A stretch of 64,000 nt of DNA from Corynebacterium testudinoris (GTDB lineage Bacteria > Actinomycetota > Actinomycetes > Mycobacteriales > Mycobacteriaceae). The stretch lies in assembly GCF_001021045.1 (NCBI RefSeq), contig NZ_CP011545.1:868001-932000 (forward strand). Reading direction: 5' to 3'. The notes below the pieces were generated by a model. The model had not been told where the DNA came from. It saw only the letters and a program-made list of their open reading frames with translations, and ran no database searches. Below are positions 40,621-64,000 of this stretch, piece after piece (position 1 is the first letter of the stretch; every line of letters starts with the position of its first letter). The position numbers and the translations under genes are program-made.

Positions 40621-42133
40621 TCCCCAGATCACGTCGTCGTCTGGTTGTTCCACGAATTGGTAGGTCGGCTCGGGCCGGAGGGTTTCGGCTCAGGTGGTCA
40701 GGAAGAAACAACAGCCGGTGGCGAGTGACCGTGCTCGAACAGCTTCCGCCACTGCGGCTCCCATTTCCAGCCCTGCGGTAGGTGCAGGACCAACCGTCGT
40801 GCCCTACGAGCAATGCGGGCCGCCACCATGACGATCCGACGCCGGATCGTCGCAGTCGTAGCCCTGGCCAGTGCCCCGGCCGCGATGGTCCCGGCAGCCC
40901 TGGTGAGGTTGAAGGCCATGACCGCCACCACCAACCACGCCGCGTTCGCGGTGAACACACCTGAAGGCATATGCGCCAGCGCACTGTTCTTCAGATCGGC
41001 GTTGACCTGCTCGATGACCGCATGCTGCCGGTGGGTCTTGTCCGCGGCCACGGTACCCAGCAGGTCTGGGTCGGCGGTGGTGAATACCGCGTGGAAGCGG
41101 TGCAGATCAAACAGGCCCGGCTGATCGATATTCTTCTTGTTCAACTCCGGGATCCGGCGCACCACCAGCCGACCGGGAACCTGATCAGCTGCCTTCTTCG
41201 ACGCAAACGCGATGAAGGGGACTTCCGCGACTTCCGCTGAGGAGATCCAGGTCTGGGTGTCCTCATCAAAGAGCGCGTCGGTGTACTCAATTGTTTCCCA
41301 GGACGTGTCCGGGATCGTGGCAATCGCGTTCTGGATGTTGGGCGTCATCCGCGCGGTGATGGACACATCAGCACCGGCGGTGAGTGCTGCGTGGATGCTG
41401 GGCCGGCCGTAGAAAGCGGAGTCCGCGCGTACGAGGATTTTCTGCTGGGCCATGGCGGGTAGGCGTCGGGTGGTGGTGATGGCATCGGCAATCAACCGGC
41501 CTGCCCCACGCGCCGAACCACAGGACCCTCGGCGCAGGCGCTGGGCTACGACCACCGGGGCAGACTCTGTCGTGGTGACCGTCGCCAGCAGAGCATTGAG
41601 CCCACGAACACCGGAGTAGCCGAAGCCGGCGCCTTGTTTCTGGTGGCCGTGGACTTCGATGATGGTGTCGTCGACATCGACGAAGACATACCCGCTGGTG
41701 GCAGCTGGGGGTGCGGGTACCAGGCCCGGTGACTGGTCAGCCAGGTTGATCAGGAAGCGGGAGGCCACGGCATCCAACTGGCGCACGTGCCCGAAGGTGA
41801 AGGCCCGGAGGAAGGATCCCAGGGTCGACGGCGCGTAGATCCGGGTAAAGAGTCGGTTCATGCCGCCGTGGCGCAACAGGTCCATGTCGTCAATCGAGTC
41901 GGCACCGGCGACCATGCCGGCGACCAGGGAGGTGATCTTCGCCCCGGCGTTGGCACCCTTGTCGCCTGCGATACTCATCCTGTGCTGTGCCAGGGTCGAC
42001 AGGCCAGCAGTGTCGGCCAGGCGCATGGCTGGGACCAAGCCGGCGGCCGACACGAGGTTGGGGTCATCGAATGAAATAGAGAGTGCCGCGGGAGTGTGAG
42101 ATAGTTGCACCTGAGAGATGCCCTCCTGGATGG
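40619..42133 (-). mobile_element. IS1380-family insertion sequence (ends approximate)
   Basis: About 1.5 kb around one intact transposase gene. GGAAT occurs at both proposed edges (40614-40618 and 42134-42138) and could be the target duplication. Inner ends are only weakly similar when inverted (GATCCCCAG against CATCCAGG), so the limits are tentative. Confidence 0.6.
40698..42110 (-). CDS. IS1380-family transposase
   Basis: 470 residues, GTG start 42110. The DDE-type catalytic core is readable: GYVFVDVDDTIIEVHGHQKQGAGFGYSG, ILVRADSAFYG (second Asp region) and TADKTHRQHAVIEQVNADLKNSALAHMPSG (Glu region), followed by the conserved hydrophobic AAWLVVAVMAFNLTRAAG. Length and order are those of actinobacterial IS1380-group enzymes. 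No frameshift or stop interrupts it, so the element may still move. Confidence 0.93.
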   Translation of the reverse strand: MQLSHTPAALSISFDDPNLVSAAGLVPAMRLADTAGLSTLAQHRMSIAGDKGANAGAKITSLVAGMVAGADSIDDMDLLRHGGMNRLFTRIYAPSTLGSFLRAFTFGHVRQLDAVASRFLINLADQSPGLVPAPPAATSGYVFVDVDDTIIEVHGHQKQGAGFGYSGVRGLNALLATVTTTESAPVVVAQRLRRGSCGSARGAGRLIADAITTTRRLPAMAQQKILVRADSAFYGRPSIHAALTAGADVSITARMTPNIQNAIATIPDTSWETIEYTDALFDEDTQTWISSAEVAEVPFIAFASKKAADQVPGRLVVRRIPELNKKNIDQPGLFDLHRFHAVFTTADPDLLGTVAADKTHRQHAVIEQVNADLKNSALAHMPSGVFTANAAWLVVAVMAFNLTRAAGTIAAGALARATTATIRRRIVMVAARIARRARRLVLHLPQGWKWEPQWRKLFEHGHSPPAVVSS

Positions 42134-42909
42134 GGAATATAGACCTTCGACAAGTCGTATTATCCCAGTTCAGAAGGGTATTTCTCTTTTTCCCACGCCG
42201 CTACCCCAAAATCACATCGGTGGATCCAGGCTTAGTGTTCGGTCGAAAGCTCTCGCGTCCCCTCGGATGGATTGGTTTGGGTGGCCGGCAGCTTGGCCGC
42301 ACTCTCCTGATCGGGACCGGCTACGGGCTGGCCTGCTGGCTCACTGTGAGCCTCTTGCAGCGCCTGTTCAACCTCGGAAATGGCGGAACGGTCAGTGTGC
42401 TCCGTGAGGGCGGTGTCGGAACGAGCGTGTCTGCGACCGTGACTCTTCTAGCCAGCGTCGCGCTAATAGCTCCAGTGTGTGAGGAATTGTACTTTCGTGC
42501 GGGGATTTTTCGGCCACTCCGTGATGGATTTTCAAAGGGAGCAGCTGTTGGGTCTACCCGGGTACGGGTATCGACGCTCCTGGCATTCCTTCTCAGCGGC
42601 GTCGCCTTTGTGAGCGTGCACGGGGGAGGAGCCGCAGACATCTTTCTTTTGTTTGTGCTCGCGGCTTTCTTCACTCTTGCCTATCTGACCACAAGTTCTT
42701 TGACAGGCGCCGTCGCGGCGCACGCGGTAAACAACATCATCTCCCTGTATGGGGCGCTCGCGGTCATGGGGAACCTCCAGTGGTGGGTATGGGTTGTGCC
42801 CGCTGCGGGCGGGATAATCGCAATTGCCGTGTCGGTAGCGCTAGGCGGCGTGTTCGACAAGGCCGACAATGACGCGAGCATTGCCGCCACTCATGGAACC
42901 TCATCGTAG
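42118..42909 (+). CDS. CPBP-family protease, 5' end replaced by the IS edge
   Basis: The frame gives 263 residues with all three CPBP motifs: CEELYFRAG (EExxxR), FVSVHGG (FxxxH) and AHAVNN (HxxxN), plus about six helices. Its first codons (42118 on) lie in the right end of the IS, so the native start is lost; GTG near 42235 could still start a shorter protein. With 40336-40620 it probably formed one gene before insertion. Confidence 0.7.
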   Translation: MPSWMGNIDLRQVVLSQFRRVFLFFPRRYPKITSVDPGLVFGRKLSRPLGWIGLGGRQLGRTLLIGTGYGLACWLTVSLLQRLFNLGNGGTVSVLREGGVGTSVSATVTLLASVALIAPVCEELYFRAGIFRPLRDGFSKGAAVGSTRVRVSTLLAFLLSGVAFVSVHGGGAADIFLLFVLAAFFTLAYLTTSSLTGAVAAHAVNNIISLYGALAVMGNLQWWVWVVPAAGGIIAIAVSVALGGVFDKADNDASIAATHGTSS

Positions 42910-57316: not shown

Positions 57317-60300
57317 ATGTCCCGCCTGAGTCCGCTGAACTGGCCCGTCATTAAGCAATTGCGCGATGGTGACGCCTTTGGCCGAGATCACAATGCCGAA
57401 TCGCCGAAGAGTGAGCACATGCACGCTCGCACCTCCGAGGCAGACCGCGTGGTCAAGAGCGTGTGTCCGTACTGCGCGGTGGGCTGCGGCCAGCTCGTCT
57501 ACGTCAAGGATGAGAAGGTCATTCAGATCGAGGGCGATCCAGATTCGCCGATCTCCCGCGGGCGGTTATGCCCGAAGGGTTCGGCATCGGAGCAGCTGGT
57601 TAACTCTTCGTCGCGCCAGACGGAGGTGTTGTACCGCGCACCGAAGTCCACCGAGTGGCAGCGGCTCGACCCCGATGAAGCAATGGATATGATCGCCGAG
57701 CGCTTCATCGAATCCCGCCGCAACGGTTGGCAGGACACCGACCAGTTTGGTCGCCCGGTCAACCGCACCATGGCCATCGCCGGCCTGGGTGGTGCGACGC
57801 TGGACAATGAAGAAAACTACCTGATCAAGAAGCTATTTACAGCCGCCGGCGCCATTCAGGTGGAAAACCAAGCTCGTATTTGACACTCCGCCACGGTTCC
57901 TAGTTTAGGAACCTCGTTTGGCCGCGGTGGAGCGACCCAGCCACTGCAGGATATGGCGAATGCAGACTGCATCGTCATTCAGGGTTCAAACATGGCCGAG
58001 GCTCACCCCGTTGGATTCCAATGGGTGATGGAGGCCAAGAAGCGCGGAGCTCGACTCATTCACGTCGATCCGCGTTTCACCCGGACGTCAGCGATGGCGG
58101 ACCGTCACATCGGTATCCGGGCCGGTAGTGATGTCGTGCTGTTGGGCGCGCTCATCAGCTATGTCATCGAAAATGATCTGTGGTTTAAGGAGTACGTCCT
58201 TAACTTCACCAACGCTGCCACGCTGATCAATGAGGAGTTCCTTGATACCGAGGACCTCGACGGGTTGTTCTCTGGTTTCGACCCGGAGACGGGCCAGTAT
58301 GACAATGAGACGTGGGAGTACCAGCGGGAGACCCATGCCGTGCGGGTAGAAACGCCGACGGACACGGATCAAAATGATGAGCACCAGAAGGCCGCGTGGG
58401 CGGAGTCCGCCGGAGATGGTGGCGCGCCCCTGGATACCTGGCACTTCAAGCAGGATCCGACGTTGCAGGATCCGCACACCGTGTTCCAGATCTTGCGTCG
58501 CCATTACTCTCGCTACACCCCGGAGTTGGTGCAGGAAACCTGTGGCATTCCGATCGAGGACTTCTACTACCTCGCGGAGTCCATTACCCAAAACTCCGGT
58601 CGCGATCGGACGACGTGCTTCGCCTACGCCTTGGGCTGGACCCAGCACACGTTGGGCGCTCAGTTCATCCGTACCTCCGCGATCTTGCAGTTGCTGCTGG
58701 GCAACATGGGTCGTCCGGGCGGCGGCATCATGGCGCTGCGCGGGCATGCGTCCATCCAGGGCAGCACGGATATTCCGACCTTGTTCAATTTGCTGCCGGG
58801 CTACCTGCCCATGCCCACGGTCCAGGAGCAAAGCTTCAATGACTACTTGTGGACGGTGTCGAACCCGAACCAGGCTGGTTTCTGGCAGAAGGGCGATACC
58901 TACGCGGTGAGCCTGCTCAAGGCCTACTTCGGTGAGCATGCCACGAAGGACAATGACTGGGGTTTCAACTGGATACCCAAGCTCACGGGCGCGCACTCGA
59001 CGTATCACACGCTGCAGGCGATGCTGCGTGATGAGGTTGAGGGCTACCTGGTCTTTGGCCAGAACCCTGCGGTAGCCCAGTCCCATGGGCGCCTCCAGCG
59101 CCTGGGTCTTAGCCACCTCAAGTGGCTCGTGGTGCGTGATTTCCAGCTCATGGAGACCGCCACGTTCTGGAAGGACTCCCCGGAGGTGAAATCCGGTGAG
59201 CTCGTCCCGGAGGAGGTGGAGACCGAGGTCTTCTTCATGCCTGCCGCCAACCACGTGGAAAAGTCGGGCACGTTCACTCAGACCCAGCGCATGCTGCAGT
59301 GGCGTTTCCAGGCTAAGCAGCCGCCGGGAGAATCAACCAGCGAGCTGAAGTTCTTCTATGACCTGGGCGTGCGCATCCGCGAAAAGCTCGCTGATTCGGA
59401 TGATCCGCGCGACCTTCCCTTGCAGAACATCACTTGGGATTACCCGGTGGATGAGCACGGCGACCCGGACCCGGAGGCGGTGCTGCAGGAGATTAACGGT
59501 TTCCATGTCTCCGGTGACAAGGCCGGCCAGCTGCTCAGCTCTTTCGGTGAGATGAAGGCGGATGGTTCGACCTCGGGTGGCTGCTGGATTTACGCGGGTG
59601 TGTTCGCCGACGGTGTGAATCATTCGGCGAAGAAGCGTCCGGGGCGTGAGCAGAATGAGCTCGCCATGGATTGGGGTTGGGTGTGGCCGTTGAACCGGCG
59701 CCTGCTCTACAACCGTGCCTCCGCGGACGCAGACGGCAAGCCGTGGTCAGAGCGGAAGAAATACGTGTGGTGGGACGAGTCCCAGGGCAAGTGGGTCGGC
59801 GACGATGTTCCCGATTTCCCCGTTGGCCTGCGCCCGGACTACAAGCCCGAGCACACCGCCGTGGGCCCTGCGGCCTTGGCCGGAACCGACGCCTTCATCA
59901 TGCAGGCGGACGGCAAGGGTTGGCTGTTTGCCCCGAAGGGCATGGTGGATGGTCCGCTGCCCACGCACTATGAGCCGCATGAGTCCCCGGTGGGCAACGC
60001 GGTTTATGAGCAGCAGCAGTCGCCGGCGCGTCTCACCTTCCCGGGCGCGGACAACTTGTCCAAGCCGGAGCCGGGTGAGTTCGGCTCGGATGTGTACCCG
60101 TTTGCCTTCTCCACGTATCGCCTGACCGAGCATTACACCTCGGGCGCGATGTCGCGGGCGTTGCCGTTTCTCGCGGAGCTGCAACCGGAGTTGTTCTGTG
60201 AGGTCTCGCCGGAGTTGGCCAAGCTGCGTGGGTTGGAAAACGCCGGGTGGGCGACGCTGATTTCTCCCCGCGGGGCGATTGAGGCTCGAGTCCTGGTCAC

Positions 60301-60664
60301 TGACCGGATGCCGGCGATGATCATCAACGGGCAGGAGTATCACAACATCGGTTTGCCCTTCCACTTTGGCAATGGTCCGTATTCGCCGGTCACCGGTGAT
60401 GGCCCCAATGATTTATTGGGCATCACCTTGGATCCGAATGTGTCCATCCAGGCGTCGAAGGTCGGCGCGTGTGATATCCGAGCTGGCCGGCGCCCCCGTG
60501 GCGCGGCGCGCGATGATCTGATCACCTTGTATCAGGTGAGGGCGGGTCTGACCGCGGCGTCGGGTAACACCAAGGTCACCGATCCGGTGGGTTATCTCGA
60601 GACCGAGGATCGCTTGGAAGAAGACATTGAGGTTCGAGAGGGACGGGAAGGAGAACGCGCATGA
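57317..60664 (+). CDS. fdhA: Selenocysteine-containing formate dehydrogenase, alpha subunit
   Basis: 1115 residues when UGA at 57881-57883 is read as selenocysteine 189. The flanking residues ARI-Sec-HSATVPSLGTSFGRG match the FdnG/FdoG active site (ARV-U-HGPTV...), and both halves are in one frame. A 4Fe-4S site (Cys50, 53, 57, 85: CPYCAVGC ... RGRLCPKG) and the molybdopterin domains follow (GSNMAEAHPVGF, VDPRFTRTSAMAD, VFGQNPAV, and C-terminal MPAMIINGQEYHNIGLPFHFG). There is no twin-arginine signal, unlike E. coli FdnG, so the site is probably cytoplasmic. The stop overlaps fdhB (ATGA). Confidence 0.95.
57884..57932 (+). promoter_or_regulatory. Bacterial SECIS element of fdhA
   Basis: Directly after UGA, a two-part hairpin forms. 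The upper stem GGTTCCTA (57895-57902) pairs perfectly with TAGGAACC (57906-57913) round a GTT loop 20-22 bases from the UGA. The lower stem CTCCGCC (57886-57892) pairs with GGTGGAG (57926-57932) with one G-U. Distance and a G/U-bearing apical loop fit SelB recognition. Confidence 0.9.
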
Positions 60665-61656
60665 CGACGACTAACACCAACGATCTGACGGAGTCGCCCT
60701 TGCACGTGGGCTACGCCCCGGGCGCGAGGAAAGCGTTCTTCACCGACACCTCGGTGTGCATCGGTTGTAAGGCCTGCGAGGTCGCGTGCAAGGAGTGGAA
60801 CCGCAACCCGGTTGAGGGCTATGAGTTGTCGGGTAATTCCTACGACAACACTGGTTCCTTGGGTGCGGATACCTGGCGGCATGTTGCCTTCATCGAGCAG
60901 GACGAAGAGCGCATTGATATTGCCCGCGAGTCGGGGCGCCAGCTCATCGGGTTGGGGATGCCGTCCATGGCGCCCCCGGCCGAGGAGGCTCGAAGCGATC
61001 ACCCCGATACGCCCGATTTCCGCTGGCTCATGTCGTCGGATGTGTGCAAGCACTGCACCAACGCTGGTTGCCTCGATGTCTGCCCGACGGGCGCGCTGTT
61101 CCGCACGGAGTTTGGCACCGTCGTGGTCCAGGATGATGTGTGCAACGGCTGCGGAACCTGCGTCGCCGGGTGTCCCTTCGGCGTCATTGAGCGTCGCCCC
61201 GACGGGGGAGTGGTGAAGAAGGACACCCGCGAGGGGCCCGATTTCACGGAGGGTGTGCAGGCCCCGGCGAAAAACGTCGGCGTCGCGCAGAAGTGCACCC
61301 TGTGTTATGACCGCCTCAAGGATGGACTCCAGCCGGCGTGCCAGAAGGCCTGCCCGACGGAGTCGATTCAGTTCGGTGATTACGAGGAAATGCTGGCCCG
61401 CGCCCGTGAGCGGGTCGCTCAGCTCCACGCGCAGGGTCGCACCGAGGCGCGCCTGTACGGCGCGAACTCCCACGATGGTGTCGGTGGCACCGGTTCCATC
61501 TTCTTGCTTCTCGACGCCCCCGAGGTCTACGGTCTGCCGCCCGATCCGCGGGTTCCTACCGCGGATCTTCCCGCGATGGCGAAGAAGGCCGCGATTGCCG
61601 CGGCGGGAATGATGGTTGCCGTGGTCGGCTCGTTTGTCATCGGAGGACGCAAGTGA
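60661..61656 (+). CDS. fdhB: Formate dehydrogenase iron-sulphur (beta) subunit
   Basis: 331 residues, ATG overlapping the fdhA stop, AAGGAG upstream. Four ferredoxin-type clusters: CIGCKACEVAC, CKHCTNAGCLDVC, CNGCGTCVAGC and CTLCYDRL...ACQKAC, sixteen Cys in all. A C-terminal membrane helix (AAIAAAGMMVAVVGSFVIGG) anchors it, as in FdnH. It carries electrons from FdhA to the membrane subunit. Confidence 0.95.
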   Translation: MTTTNTNDLTESPLHVGYAPGARKAFFTDTSVCIGCKACEVACKEWNRNPVEGYELSGNSYDNTGSLGADTWRHVAFIEQDEERIDIARESGRQLIGLGMPSMAPPAEEARSDHPDTPDFRWLMSSDVCKHCTNAGCLDVCPTGALFRTEFGTVVVQDDVCNGCGTCVAGCPFGVIERRPDGGVVKKDTREGPDFTEGVQAPAKNVGVAQKCTLCYDRLKDGLQPACQKACPTESIQFGDYEEMLARARERVAQLHAQGRTEARLYGANSHDGVGGTGSIFLLLDAPEVYGLPPDPRVPTADLPAMAKKAAIAAAGMMVAVVGSFVIGGRK

Positions 61657-62750
61657 CCAGTCGTTTTGATAGCTACCGCGATCCCGTGGAGCCTCGCCGC
61701 CGTGGTTCCGGCGGTGGGCGGAAGAAGAAGCGCCATGGTGCCGGCGCAATGGATGGCTCCCGTGAGGAGCGCATGGTCCCGGATATGCAGTTCGAGTCCT
61801 ACTACGGCAAGCCGGTGGTCAAAGCCCCGCCGTGGGAATGGCCGATTGGCACCTATCTGTTCCTGGGTGGCGTGGCGGGTGGCTCGGCACTATTGGGGGC
61901 GGGCGCCCAGCTAAGCAACCGTCCAATTCTGCGGCGCAATAGCCGACTGGCTGCCTTCACCGCCGCCAGCGTCGGCTCCCTCGCCTTGATCGCGGACCTC
62001 GGACGCCCGGAGCGGCTGCTCCACATGTTCCGGGTGTTCAAGCTGTCATCGCCCATGAACGTTGGTTCCTGGATTCTGGCGAGCTTCAGCACGTTGGCCG
62101 CCGTGTCGGCTGCGGCGGAAGCTGATGATCTGACGGGCCGTCGTCTGCCGTTGCCTCAAGTAGCCCGCACGGTCACCCACCAGGCGGCAGCACCAACCGC
62201 GGGGCTCATCGCCGGGGCGCTCGGCGCGCCGTTGGCGGTCTACACCGCCGTGCTGTTTGGCGATACGTCGAACCCCGCCTGGAACTCCGCGAAGTTCCAC
62301 CTCCCCTTCCTTTTTGTCAGCTCCGCCTCGGCGGCCTCGGGAGGGCTGGGAATGCTCACCACCCCCGTGGCAGAGGCGGGCCCGGCGCGTGCCCTGGCCG
62401 TTGTCGGCGCGGCCTGCGATGTCGCCGCGACGAAGGCGATGCACGCCCAGATCGATGAGATCTCGATGGAACCCTACGAGCACGGCACCGCCGGGAAGCT
62501 GCTCCACTGGGCGGAACGGCTCGTCATCGCTGGCGGCCTCGGAGCACTCATCGGCGGGGGCAACCGGAAGATCGCCGCGGCCTCCGGAGCTGCTCTCTTG
62601 GCCGGTTCGGCGCTCACCCGGTTCGGCGTGCTGGAGGCGGGGCTGCATTCGGTCACCGACCCCAAGTACGTCATCGAGCCCCAGAAGCGCCGTTTGGAAG
62701 ATCGTGTCAACGCCGGTGATACCGGCGAGGGCATCACCACCGCTGGCTAG
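61653..62750 (+). CDS. nrfD: NrfD/PsrC-type membrane subunit of formate dehydrogenase
   Basis: 365 residues, GTG start overlapping the fdhB stop (GTGA). A basic N-terminal tail (RRRGSGGGRKKKRHG) is followed by about eight helices; PPWEWPIGTYLFLGGVAGGSALLGAGAQ opens the NrfD fold and FRVFKLSSPMNVGSW lies in the quinone-site region. It replaces the cytochrome b subunit of FdnGHI and probably hands electrons to menaquinone. Its stop overlaps selD on the other strand. Confidence 0.9.
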   Translation: MTSRFDSYRDPVEPRRRGSGGGRKKKRHGAGAMDGSREERMVPDMQFESYYGKPVVKAPPWEWPIGTYLFLGGVAGGSALLGAGAQLSNRPILRRNSRLAAFTAASVGSLALIADLGRPERLLHMFRVFKLSSPMNVGSWILASFSTLAAVSAAAEADDLTGRRLPLPQVARTVTHQAAAPTAGLIAGALGAPLAVYTAVLFGDTSNPAWNSAKFHLPFLFVSSASAASGGLGMLTTPVAEAGPARALAVVGAACDVAATKAMHAQIDEISMEPYEHGTAGKLLHWAERLVIAGGLGALIGGGNRKIAAASGAALLAGSALTRFGVLEAGLHSVTDPKYVIEPQKRRLEDRVNAGDTGEGITTAG

Positions 62751-63733
62751 CGCACGGTGACGGTCCCGGCGGGACCCGCAATGGTCTCGCCGATGACCGG
62801 ATACCCGGGGACCTCGCCGATGACGAGGAGACCTCCGGACGTCTGGGCGTCGGCAAGCATGATGAGGTCCTCCTCGCTGATGCCGTCCGCGCGCAGGTGT
62901 GGGCGGACCCAGTCGAGGTTGCGGCGCGAGCCGCCGGAGATGAACCCGTCGCGCAGCGCTTCGTCGGCGCCGTCGACGTGGGGGACGGTCGCGTGATCAA
63001 TGATCGCGGCGACGCCGGAGGCCCGCATCATCTTGTACAAGTGACCGAGCAGGCCAAACCCGGTGACGTCGGTCGCCGCTTTTGCACCGGCGGCCACGGC
63101 GGCCTGCGAGGCCTCGCGGTTAAGTGCTGTCATCGTCTCGATCGCTGCGGGGAACACCTCCCCGGTGTTCTTGTGGCGGTTGTTGAGCAACCCCACACCG
63201 ATCGGTTTGGTGAGGGTGATGGGGAGGCCAGCGGTGGCCGCATCATTGCGCATGAGGTGGGCCGGGTCGGCGATGCCGGTGACCGCCATGCCGTAGACGG
63301 GCTCGGGTCCGTCGATGGAGTGGCCACCCGTGACGGGCGCTCCGGCTTCGTTGGCGATGTCCATGCCGCCGCGCAGCACCTCGGTGAGCAACTCCATCGG
63401 CAGTTTCTCGCGCGGCCAGCACAGCAAGTTGATGGCCGTGACCGGGCGCCCACCCATGGCATACACATCAGAGAGGGCGTTGGCGGCAGCGATGCGGCCC
63501 CAGTCGTAGGCGGAATTGACCACCGGGGTGAAAAAGTCGGCGGTGGAGATGACCGCGATGTCGTCGGCGATGCGGACAGCCGCGGCATCGTCGCCGTCAT
63601 CGAGGCCCACGAGGACGTTTTCGTCGCTGACGCCGGTCAGCCCGCGGACGGCCTCTTCGAGTTCTCCCGGGGGAATCTTGCAGGCGCAACCTCCACCGGC
63701 GGCGAATCCAGTGAGCTTGATGTCAGGTGTCAT
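62747..63733 (-). CDS. selD: Selenophosphate synthase SelD
   Basis: 328 residues. The glycine-rich N-terminus GGGCACKIPP has Cys16 at the catalytic position (Cys, not Sec) and Lys19; the ATP-binding AIRS fold follows (DDAAAVRIADDIAVISTADFFTPVV, NALSDVYAMGGRPVTAINL, GGHSIDGPEP, TDVTGFGLLGHLYKM). It makes selenophosphate from selenide and ATP, the selenium donor for SelA. Convergent with nrfD. Confidence 0.97.
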   Translation of the reverse strand: MTPDIKLTGFAAGGGCACKIPPGELEEAVRGLTGVSDENVLVGLDDGDDAAAVRIADDIAVISTADFFTPVVNSAYDWGRIAAANALSDVYAMGGRPVTAINLLCWPREKLPMELLTEVLRGGMDIANEAGAPVTGGHSIDGPEPVYGMAVTGIADPAHLMRNDAATAGLPITLTKPIGVGLLNNRHKNTGEVFPAAIETMTALNREASQAAVAAGAKAATDVTGFGLLGHLYKMMRASGVAAIIDHATVPHVDGADEALRDGFISGGSRRNLDWVRPHLRADGISEEDLIMLADAQTSGGLLVIGEVPGYPVIGETIAGPAGTVTVR

Positions 63734-63768
63734 CCTTCAAACATTAGTCACGAGGTAGCCTGTCATGT

Positions 63769-63863
63769 GGAGGCGTACGTGTCCTGGTGGGCGCCCCGGT
63801 CTTCAAAACCGGTGAGGCCGAGTACCTCGGTCTGGCGAGTTCGATTCTCGTCCGTCTCCGCCA
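63769..63863 (+). tRNA. selC: Selenocysteine tRNA, anticodon UCA
   Basis: 95 bases including an encoded CCA. The acceptor GGAGGCG pairs with CGTCTCC (one G-U), followed by discriminator G. The anticodon stem-loop is CCGGT-CTTCAAA-ACCGG with TCA at 63803-63805. A long variable arm (GCCGAG-TAC-CTCGGT) and a T arm with extended pairing (together about 13 pairs with the acceptor) are typical of tRNA-Sec. A TAGCCT -10 lies at 63756, and TTTTTT follows the CCA. Confidence 0.95.
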
Positions 63864-63908
63864 TTTTTTGAAAGCTCAACCGCAAAGGAAAGGGCAAGGC
63901 CAGCCACG

Positions 63909-64000
63909 ATGGATCCCCGCCGTCGAATCCCCCGGACCGACGATCTGCTCCGGCTTCCGGCGGTCGTGGCGGCGAGGGACGTGTTGTCAGCGCCGGTGAT
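63909..64000 (+). CDS. selA: L-seryl-tRNA(Sec) selenium transferase (start only)
   Basis: Only 30 codons are in the window: MDPRRRIPRTDDLLRLPAVV..., the beginning of the N-terminal tRNA-Sec-binding domain of SelA. ATG 63909 follows AAAGGAAAGGGCAAGG, 45 bases after selC, so the two may share a transcript. SelA turns seryl-tRNA-Sec into selenocysteinyl-tRNA using SelD's product. selB would be expected next. Confidence 0.88.
   Translation, partial: MDPRRRIPRTDDLLRLPAVVAARDVLSAPV

Follow-up and report, generated by a model that had tools for sequence, protein, structure and literature searches.

Does the UGA codon inside a formate dehydrogenase (FDH) gene of Corynebacterium testudinoris specify selenocysteine (Sec), and how did this enzyme come to lie beside the machinery needed to decode it? 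The question is raised by the last part of a stretch of 64,000 nucleotides (contig NZ_CP011545.1, positions 868,001 to 932,000; hereafter the window), where the FDH genes fdhA, fdhB and fdhC share a block with the Sec-decoding genes selD, selC and selA. The original prediction, made from the letters of this DNA, held that enzyme and machinery travel as one unit that could be gained or lost in a single event, in a genus where Sec is not commonly described. As judged from the genomes compared below, the block is very likely a working Sec-FDH locus that belongs to a single Corynebacterium lineage, has come down mostly by vertical descent and has been lost completely about nine times.

The UGA codon of fdhA and its proposed decoding

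The gene of the catalytic subunit, fdhA (57317..60664, plus strand), encodes 1115 residues with Sec at position 189. The proposed Sec codon is the UGA at 57881..57883 (plus strand; residue 189 counted from the ATG at 57317). It is the sole interruption of the frame, and 926 residues are open beyond it. FdhA scores 1823.5 bits against NCBIfam NF041513 formate_DH_Act (cut-off 1400) and 919.5 bits against TIGR01553 (cut-off 814.2), and with both cut-offs exceeded it is a homologue of the molybdopterin-type FDH alpha subunits. In phmmer alignments the UGA falls on the Sec column (X) of the D. gigas FDH (1h0h) and of E. coli FDH-N (1kqf), which bears out the active-site context originally claimed for it. 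The start at ATG 57317 is supported by the MSRxSPLNWPV-like N-terminal motif shared by the FdhA relatives listed. Extra N-terminal stops in the fdhA matches of some genomes vanish when the query begins at this ATG, and probably lie upstream of the gene start.

The bacterial Sec insertion sequence (SECIS) is a stem-loop right behind the UGA whose pairing is conserved and whose loop carries a G near its start. The apical hairpin predicted for fdhA occupies 57895..57913 (plus strand), and its loop AGUUU (57902-57906) begins 18 nt past the UGA. Its single-sequence fold is moderate (z -2.37 for 57875-57935, z -1.36 for 57881-57950). To compare it across species, 77 fdhA copies from 76 Corynebacterium genomes (G105 twice; G205 and G232 left out) were aligned, giving 52 distinct stretches. 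At the innermost pair, 33 of these have C-G and 19 have T-A, so that all 52 are paired; pair 17/29 is T-A in 47, C-G in four and T-G in one. In these two pairs each paired base is the third of its codon, and the changes are silent in the codons concerned (Val, Pro, Leu, Gly). Because the covarying positions leave the amino acids unchanged, the covariation is not caused by constraint on the protein. Over the seven named pairs, 90.9% of the cells are standard pairs, compared with an average of 83.4% in 500 column shuffles, none of which reached the observed value; slid versions of the alignment gave 29-64%. The loop reads AGTTT in 33, AGTCT in 13 and GGTCT in six of the 52 stretches, and loop and covariation both agree with the SECIS consensus. 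Weighing against the hairpin are its outermost pair, standard in just 38 of the 52, and its third pair, which is T-T in 19. The comparison between species, rather than the single folds, supports a real hairpin.

The Sec-decoding genes lie alongside. selD, for selenophosphate synthetase (62747..63733; TIGR00476, 377.4 bits, cut-off 125), is on the minus strand, an orientation that the original prediction left unstated, and converges on fdhC with an overlap of 4 bases. The tRNA-Sec gene selC (63769..63863, plus strand) was called by ARAGORN with the anticodon TCA and an encoded CCA, and matches Rfam RF01852 with 74 bits (gathering 47). Of the Sec synthase gene selA, which starts at 63910 on the plus strand (TIGR00474, 413 bits), the first 91 bases (63910..64000) fall inside the window; the whole gene spans G000:C1:931909-933207 in the same genome and extends beyond the window end. 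The original prediction hinged on a selB gene past position 64000, and this gene is indeed present outside the window, directly after selA on the plus strand (G000:C1:933209-934996; TIGR00475, 294 bits, cut-off 242.25). The genome thereby encodes selA, selB, selC and selD, the full set for Sec decoding. As a unit the block is real in that the fdh genes stand beside the decoding genes, but it is not self-sufficient, because FdhD is encoded elsewhere (G000:C1:446085-446822; 146.9 bits, cut-off 140.9). Molybdenum cofactor synthesis is presumably likewise encoded outside the block.

The two further FDH subunits are also as originally described. The product of fdhB (60661..61656, plus strand) is an iron-sulfur (Fe-S) subunit in which Pfam finds several 4Fe-4S domains (Fer4_11, Fer4_7 and others); residues 310-328 form a hydrophobic stretch at its C-terminal end. 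fdhC (61653..62750, plus strand) encodes a membrane subunit of the NrfD type, with 62.9 bits against Pfam PF03916 (gathering 25.8); a simple hydropathy scan finds only two 19-residue stretches above 1.6. The start of fdhB overlaps the stop of fdhA by 4 bases, and the start of fdhC overlaps that of fdhB likewise.

Distribution and layout across the genus

In a survey of 242 Corynebacterium genomes, selA over its cut-off, tRNA-Sec, selD and an fdhA orthologue were each found in 78, and the four sets of 78 genomes are identical (hereafter Sec+). None of selA, selD and tRNA-Sec is over its cut-off in the remaining 164 genomes (Sec-), whose fdhA matches are weak among those listed (best E 2.0e-34, 36% identity). 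A cysteine (Cys) version of FdhA was not seen in the 242 genomes, among the matches listed. All 79 Corynebacterium fdhA copies compared (the 77 aligned, plus G205 and G232) have TGA at the Sec site. The premise that Sec is uncommonly described in the genus does not hold: it has been published for C. aurimucosum, in the passages of PMC2830990 on its Sec-FDH region, and about a third of the genomes searched here carry the trait.

The layout is conserved as well. selB is present in all 78 Sec+ loci retrieved, and selD, selA and selB keep the order and strands of the window in every one of them. The order fdhA-fdhB-fdhC precedes the sel genes within one retrieved stretch in 75/78 genomes; in G205, the contig of the sel stretch carries the fdhA end only. 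The tRNA-Sec was called by ARAGORN in 77 of the 78 stretches and by the Rfam search in 78. The distance from fdhA to selA amounts to 28.3 kb in G040, 17.0 kb in G216 and 12.7 kb in G232. FdhA of C. pollutisoli (locus L011) is 86% identical to that of the window. A more divergent FdhA is found in G068, G105, G205 and G232, with 60-64% identity to the window protein versus about 70% in most others (reported segments); the sel genes of these four genomes are not unusually distant. G105 carries two fdhABC sets (L259 8030-13434 and L204 3041-8541).

In the window, selD and the tRNA-Sec gene diverge from a gap of 35 bases (63734-63768). When the start of selD is placed by extrapolation from the window protein, this gap measures 21-35 bases in 32 of the 77 genomes measured; five genomes (G043, G124, G219, G220 and G224) have 0.8-2.2 kb, and the remaining 72 have 21-232 bases. 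Where the gap is so short, the promoter signals of selD and tRNA-Sec may each sit within the opposite gene.

Two of the Sec+ genomes hold a broken fdhA. An internal TAG is found at the position of residue 394 of the window FdhA in G142 (L218) and at that of residue 523 in G232 (L400), while selD, selA, selB and tRNA-Sec are kept in both. Each assembly consists of one contig and is 99% complete. The two TAGs perhaps mark loss of the trait in progress, or alternatively a sequencing error. Apart from these, the retrieved fdhA copies showed no further internal stop; in G131 and G200 the frame stops at residue 1110 of 1115, which was taken as the natural end of the protein. In the rpoB trees described below, G142 pairs with the Sec- genome G028 (support 92 and 87), and G232 falls in an unresolved trio with G216 and the Sec- genome G240 (support 81 and 86). 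Such a place beside Sec- species is as expected if the broken copies belong to lineages that are losing the trait. Gain or loss as a unit, as originally proposed, is thus borne out for the trait as a whole, which is present in the same 78 of 242 genomes, but not for a single event: since two genomes hold a broken fdhA together with the remaining sel genes, loss may proceed stepwise.

Inheritance, loss and origin of the block

The history of the block was followed against rpoB, picked by similarity. A first tree (FastTree) holds 150 genomes, namely 59 of the 78 Sec+ and 91 of the 164 Sec-, and a second (IQ-TREE) holds 90 of these rows, 32 of them Sec+. In the FastTree tree one group of 73 rows takes in every Sec+ row, together with 14 Sec- rows that are nested inside it; ten changes of Sec state are needed and nine are forced by the starred branches, compared with about 47 for shuffled labels. 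The IQ-TREE tree likewise needs ten changes, eight of them forced, and in it a single branch sets off all 44 outer Sec- rows. Counts of this kind cannot separate gain from loss, and the history of Sec in Corynebacterium is best read in its simplest form, as one old gain that would have been followed by about nine complete losses.

The trees of the block itself point the same way. A starred branch sets the Corynebacterium rows apart from all others, both in the fdh tree (58 of 124 rows) and in the sel tree (59 of 105). Among the branches with support of at least 99, those conflicting with rpoB number 0/28 for sel and 2/34 for fdh, so that the discordance within the genus expected of a mobile element was not found, with rpoB as one marker. 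The GC content is 63.0% for the fdh part, 65.4% for the whole block and 62.5% for window positions 1-57000, and gives no sign of recent import. Inside the genus the block thus appears to be mostly inherited vertically, and frequent travel there is not supported. The survey and tree comparison suggested by the original prediction have located the block in many genomes, but with trees that mostly match rpoB rather than showing travel.

The flanks of the block were compared for nine of the 14 nested Sec- genomes (G031, G104, G003, G122, G240, G022, G036, G130 and G098); in the other five (G028, G061, G033, G002 and G100) the lplA-like marker was not found and no site was compared. The four proteins neighbouring the window block are PIG-L, a UvrA-like and an LplAB-like protein and one without a family. 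Among the nine neighbourhoods, both flanks are shared with the window only in the Sec- kin G104 and G031. Here, PIG-L lies on one side and dn1, the UvrA-like and the LplAB-like genes lie on the other, in the order and on the strands seen around the window block, and PIG-L and dn1 are separated by 6.4 kb (G104) and 16 kb (G031) of other DNA. This arrangement fits a complete loss, yet alone it cannot separate loss from never having had the block. A search for block remnants in the retrieved Sec- stretches gave just two matches (E 0.55 and 0.63), which were taken as chance.

In a different history, the block would be mobile and would have passed between Corynebacterium species again and again, its patchiness reflecting many gains. 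This is improbable, even though several observations would suit it. Presence is patchy among close relatives, the position of the block relative to the lplA-like gene differs between groups, and the extra fdhABC set of G105 groups with G069 at full support and not with its own kin, which suggests transfer or an old duplication of enzyme genes without sel genes. The branch that holds all Sec+ rows, on which a single gain depends, has a support of just 90 (FastTree) and 84 (IQ-TREE), and the Sec- groups in the IQ-TREE run were defined from the FastTree tree. rpoB is a single marker gene, and 73 of the 164 Sec- genomes are outside its tree. At a support of at least 95, conflicts with rpoB rise to 3/38 for fdh and 2/37 for sel, and sel conflicts with fdh in 7/36 branches (2/27 at a support of at least 99). 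The limited support, the sampling, the conflicts and the extra set of G105 count against a single lineage with vertical descent. Against repeated movement, however, stand the single Corynebacterium group in both block trees, the near absence of conflicts with rpoB at the highest support, the one rpoB group that takes in all sampled Sec+ genomes, the flanks shared with two Sec- kin and an fdh GC content close to that of window positions 1-57000. Repeated horizontal movement inside the genus was rejected on the mostly congruent trees, the one Sec+ group and the shared flanks.

The other parts of the proposed reading meet objections of their own. FdhB reaches 168.1 bits against TIGR01582, short of the cut-off of 334.7, and neither FdhB nor FdhC is over any NCBIfam cut-off among the models listed; by its sequence, FdhB is a homologous Fe-S subunit but no member of the TIGR01582 FDH-N/FDH-O beta equivalog. 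That the UGA is a true stop, or that the gene has decayed here and left a relic frame downstream, would agree with the moderate single-sequence fold of the hairpin and with the TAG codons that interrupt fdhA in G142 and G232. It is nevertheless extremely unlikely, given the long open frame after the UGA in the window genome, the TGA kept in every copy with other internal stops in those two genomes only, the covarying third codon positions of the hairpin and the selA, selB, selD and tRNA-Sec genes alongside; a decayed gene or true stop in the window genome was rejected on this evidence.

A further proposal concerns the source of the block and is compatible with a single Sec+ lineage in Corynebacterium. 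The block may have entered the ancestor of that lineage from another actinobacterial order, with a Micrococcales-like donor, although this is tentative and rather less than an even prospect. The relatives were taken as the best 80 named loci, by FdhA similarity, of a longer list; 73 of these belong to genera other than Corynebacterium, and a stop codon occupies the Sec site in each of the 80. The nearest are from Kocuria, Arthrobacter, Brachybacterium and Mycobacterium asiaticum, joined in the fdh tree only by a Gordonia metagenome-assembled genome (MAG), and all except the Gordonia locus have the identical gene order. This order is shared by 16 of the 73 other-genus loci, namely seven from Brachybacterium, two from Kocuria and one each from Arthrobacter, Knoellia, Ornithinimicrobium, Mycobacterium asiaticum, Kineococcus, Actinoplanes and an unclassified MAG; among the others, several are truncated by a contig end. 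Table 2 of PMC5029168 records two other Sec transfers within Actinobacteria. On the other side, the loci are only the best of the longer list, the trees have no root, and a similar picture would result if the block had descended vertically and been lost within both orders.

Proposed function and relation to known systems

SelD supplies selenophosphate, SelA turns Ser-tRNA-Sec into Sec-tRNA-Sec, and SelB together with the hairpin decodes UGA. When expressed, the block would yield a membrane-anchored Sec-FDH that oxidizes formate. SelB would deliver Sec-tRNA-Sec to the ribosome when the SECIS hairpin sits just behind UGA-189, and electrons from FdhA would pass via FdhB and the NrfD-type FdhC, probably to menaquinone. 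A twin-arginine pattern, as in a twin-arginine translocation (Tat) signal, was not seen in the N-terminus of the window FdhA. Even a loose form of the pattern is absent from 73 of 77 Corynebacterium FdhA upstream stretches; the four that have it are those of G135, G136, G161 and G162. Because the Tat signal is missing, FdhA would face the cytoplasm on its membrane anchor.

This differs from E. coli FDH-N, whose membrane subunit is a cytochrome b and whose FdnG is exported. FdhA is homologous to the E. coli protein, including the Sec column, and the decoding parts are the same (FdnGHI with selABC and selD), whereas here the membrane subunit is of the NrfD type, no Tat signal is seen in FdhA and the sel genes lie beside the fdh genes. 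With respect to the actinobacterial FDH family of NF041513, whose cut-off FdhA exceeds, no distinguishing difference was seen.

The gene layout itself is not new. A Sec-FDH region with fdnG, fdxH, selD, selC, selA and selB was reported for C. aurimucosum in 2010, and the passages of PMC2830990 on it call the gene order highly conserved. C. aurimucosum ATCC 700975 has the same gene set with a UGA in fdnG according to these passages, and the genome taken as this strain (G016) shows the order and strands of the window. The difference is one of species, with an FdhA about 70% identical to that of the window. The distribution over the genus, the covariation of the hairpin and the history of the block, left untreated in the passages, are covered here. 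In the same passages fdhD (cauri_0426) is called an additional thiol formate dehydrogenase, apparently a misreading, given that PMC7176365 lists FdhD as an accessory sulfurtransferase of formate dehydrogenase. Among the matches listed in the open-access literature, no further paper on Sec in Corynebacterium was recognised by its title or the start of its abstract, and the genus-wide pattern may already be in print.

A related cluster is known from Actinomycetospora chiangmaiensis, where, according to PMC7176365, formate removal is selenium-dependent and FdhA1, SelA, SelB and SelD were detected at low abundance. Its FDH1 cluster resembles the window block in uniting FdhA1, FdhB1, FdhC1, SelA and SelB. 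It differs in that the organism has three Sec-FDH systems, and SelD is not placed in the FDH1 cluster in Table 1 of that paper. A joint transfer of sel genes and fdhA was proposed earlier for Pseudomonadales and others (PMC1794560, PMC5029168). In a different part of the window, positions 42113-42229 match the actinobacterial small RNA Ms_IGR-7 with 45.8 bits, against a gathering threshold of 45.

Across bacteria, FdhA accounts for the most Sec-to-Cys changes reported in Table 1 of PMC1794560 (seven). In Corynebacterium the block would have entered, or survived in, one lineage and been passed on mostly vertically, with the enzyme perhaps breaking first in the complete losses. An evenly balanced proposal is that Sec behaves here as an all-or-none module, with one old entry, about nine complete losses and no Cys escape seen; some feature of the enzyme or its niche would perhaps render a Cys form useless, so that failure of the enzyme leads to Sec being abandoned as well.

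What deserves to be retained is the pattern across the 242 genomes: all-or-none, repeatedly lost and without a Cys form, with two candidates for loss in progress. It corrects the view of Sec as exceptional in Corynebacterium, a genus with many close relatives that have or lack the 21st amino acid. These sister species form a natural experiment in which the causes of Sec loss, be it oxygen, selenium supply, host niche or a lost use of formate, can be tested. Their comparison also makes the order of loss testable, whether the enzyme or the machinery goes first.

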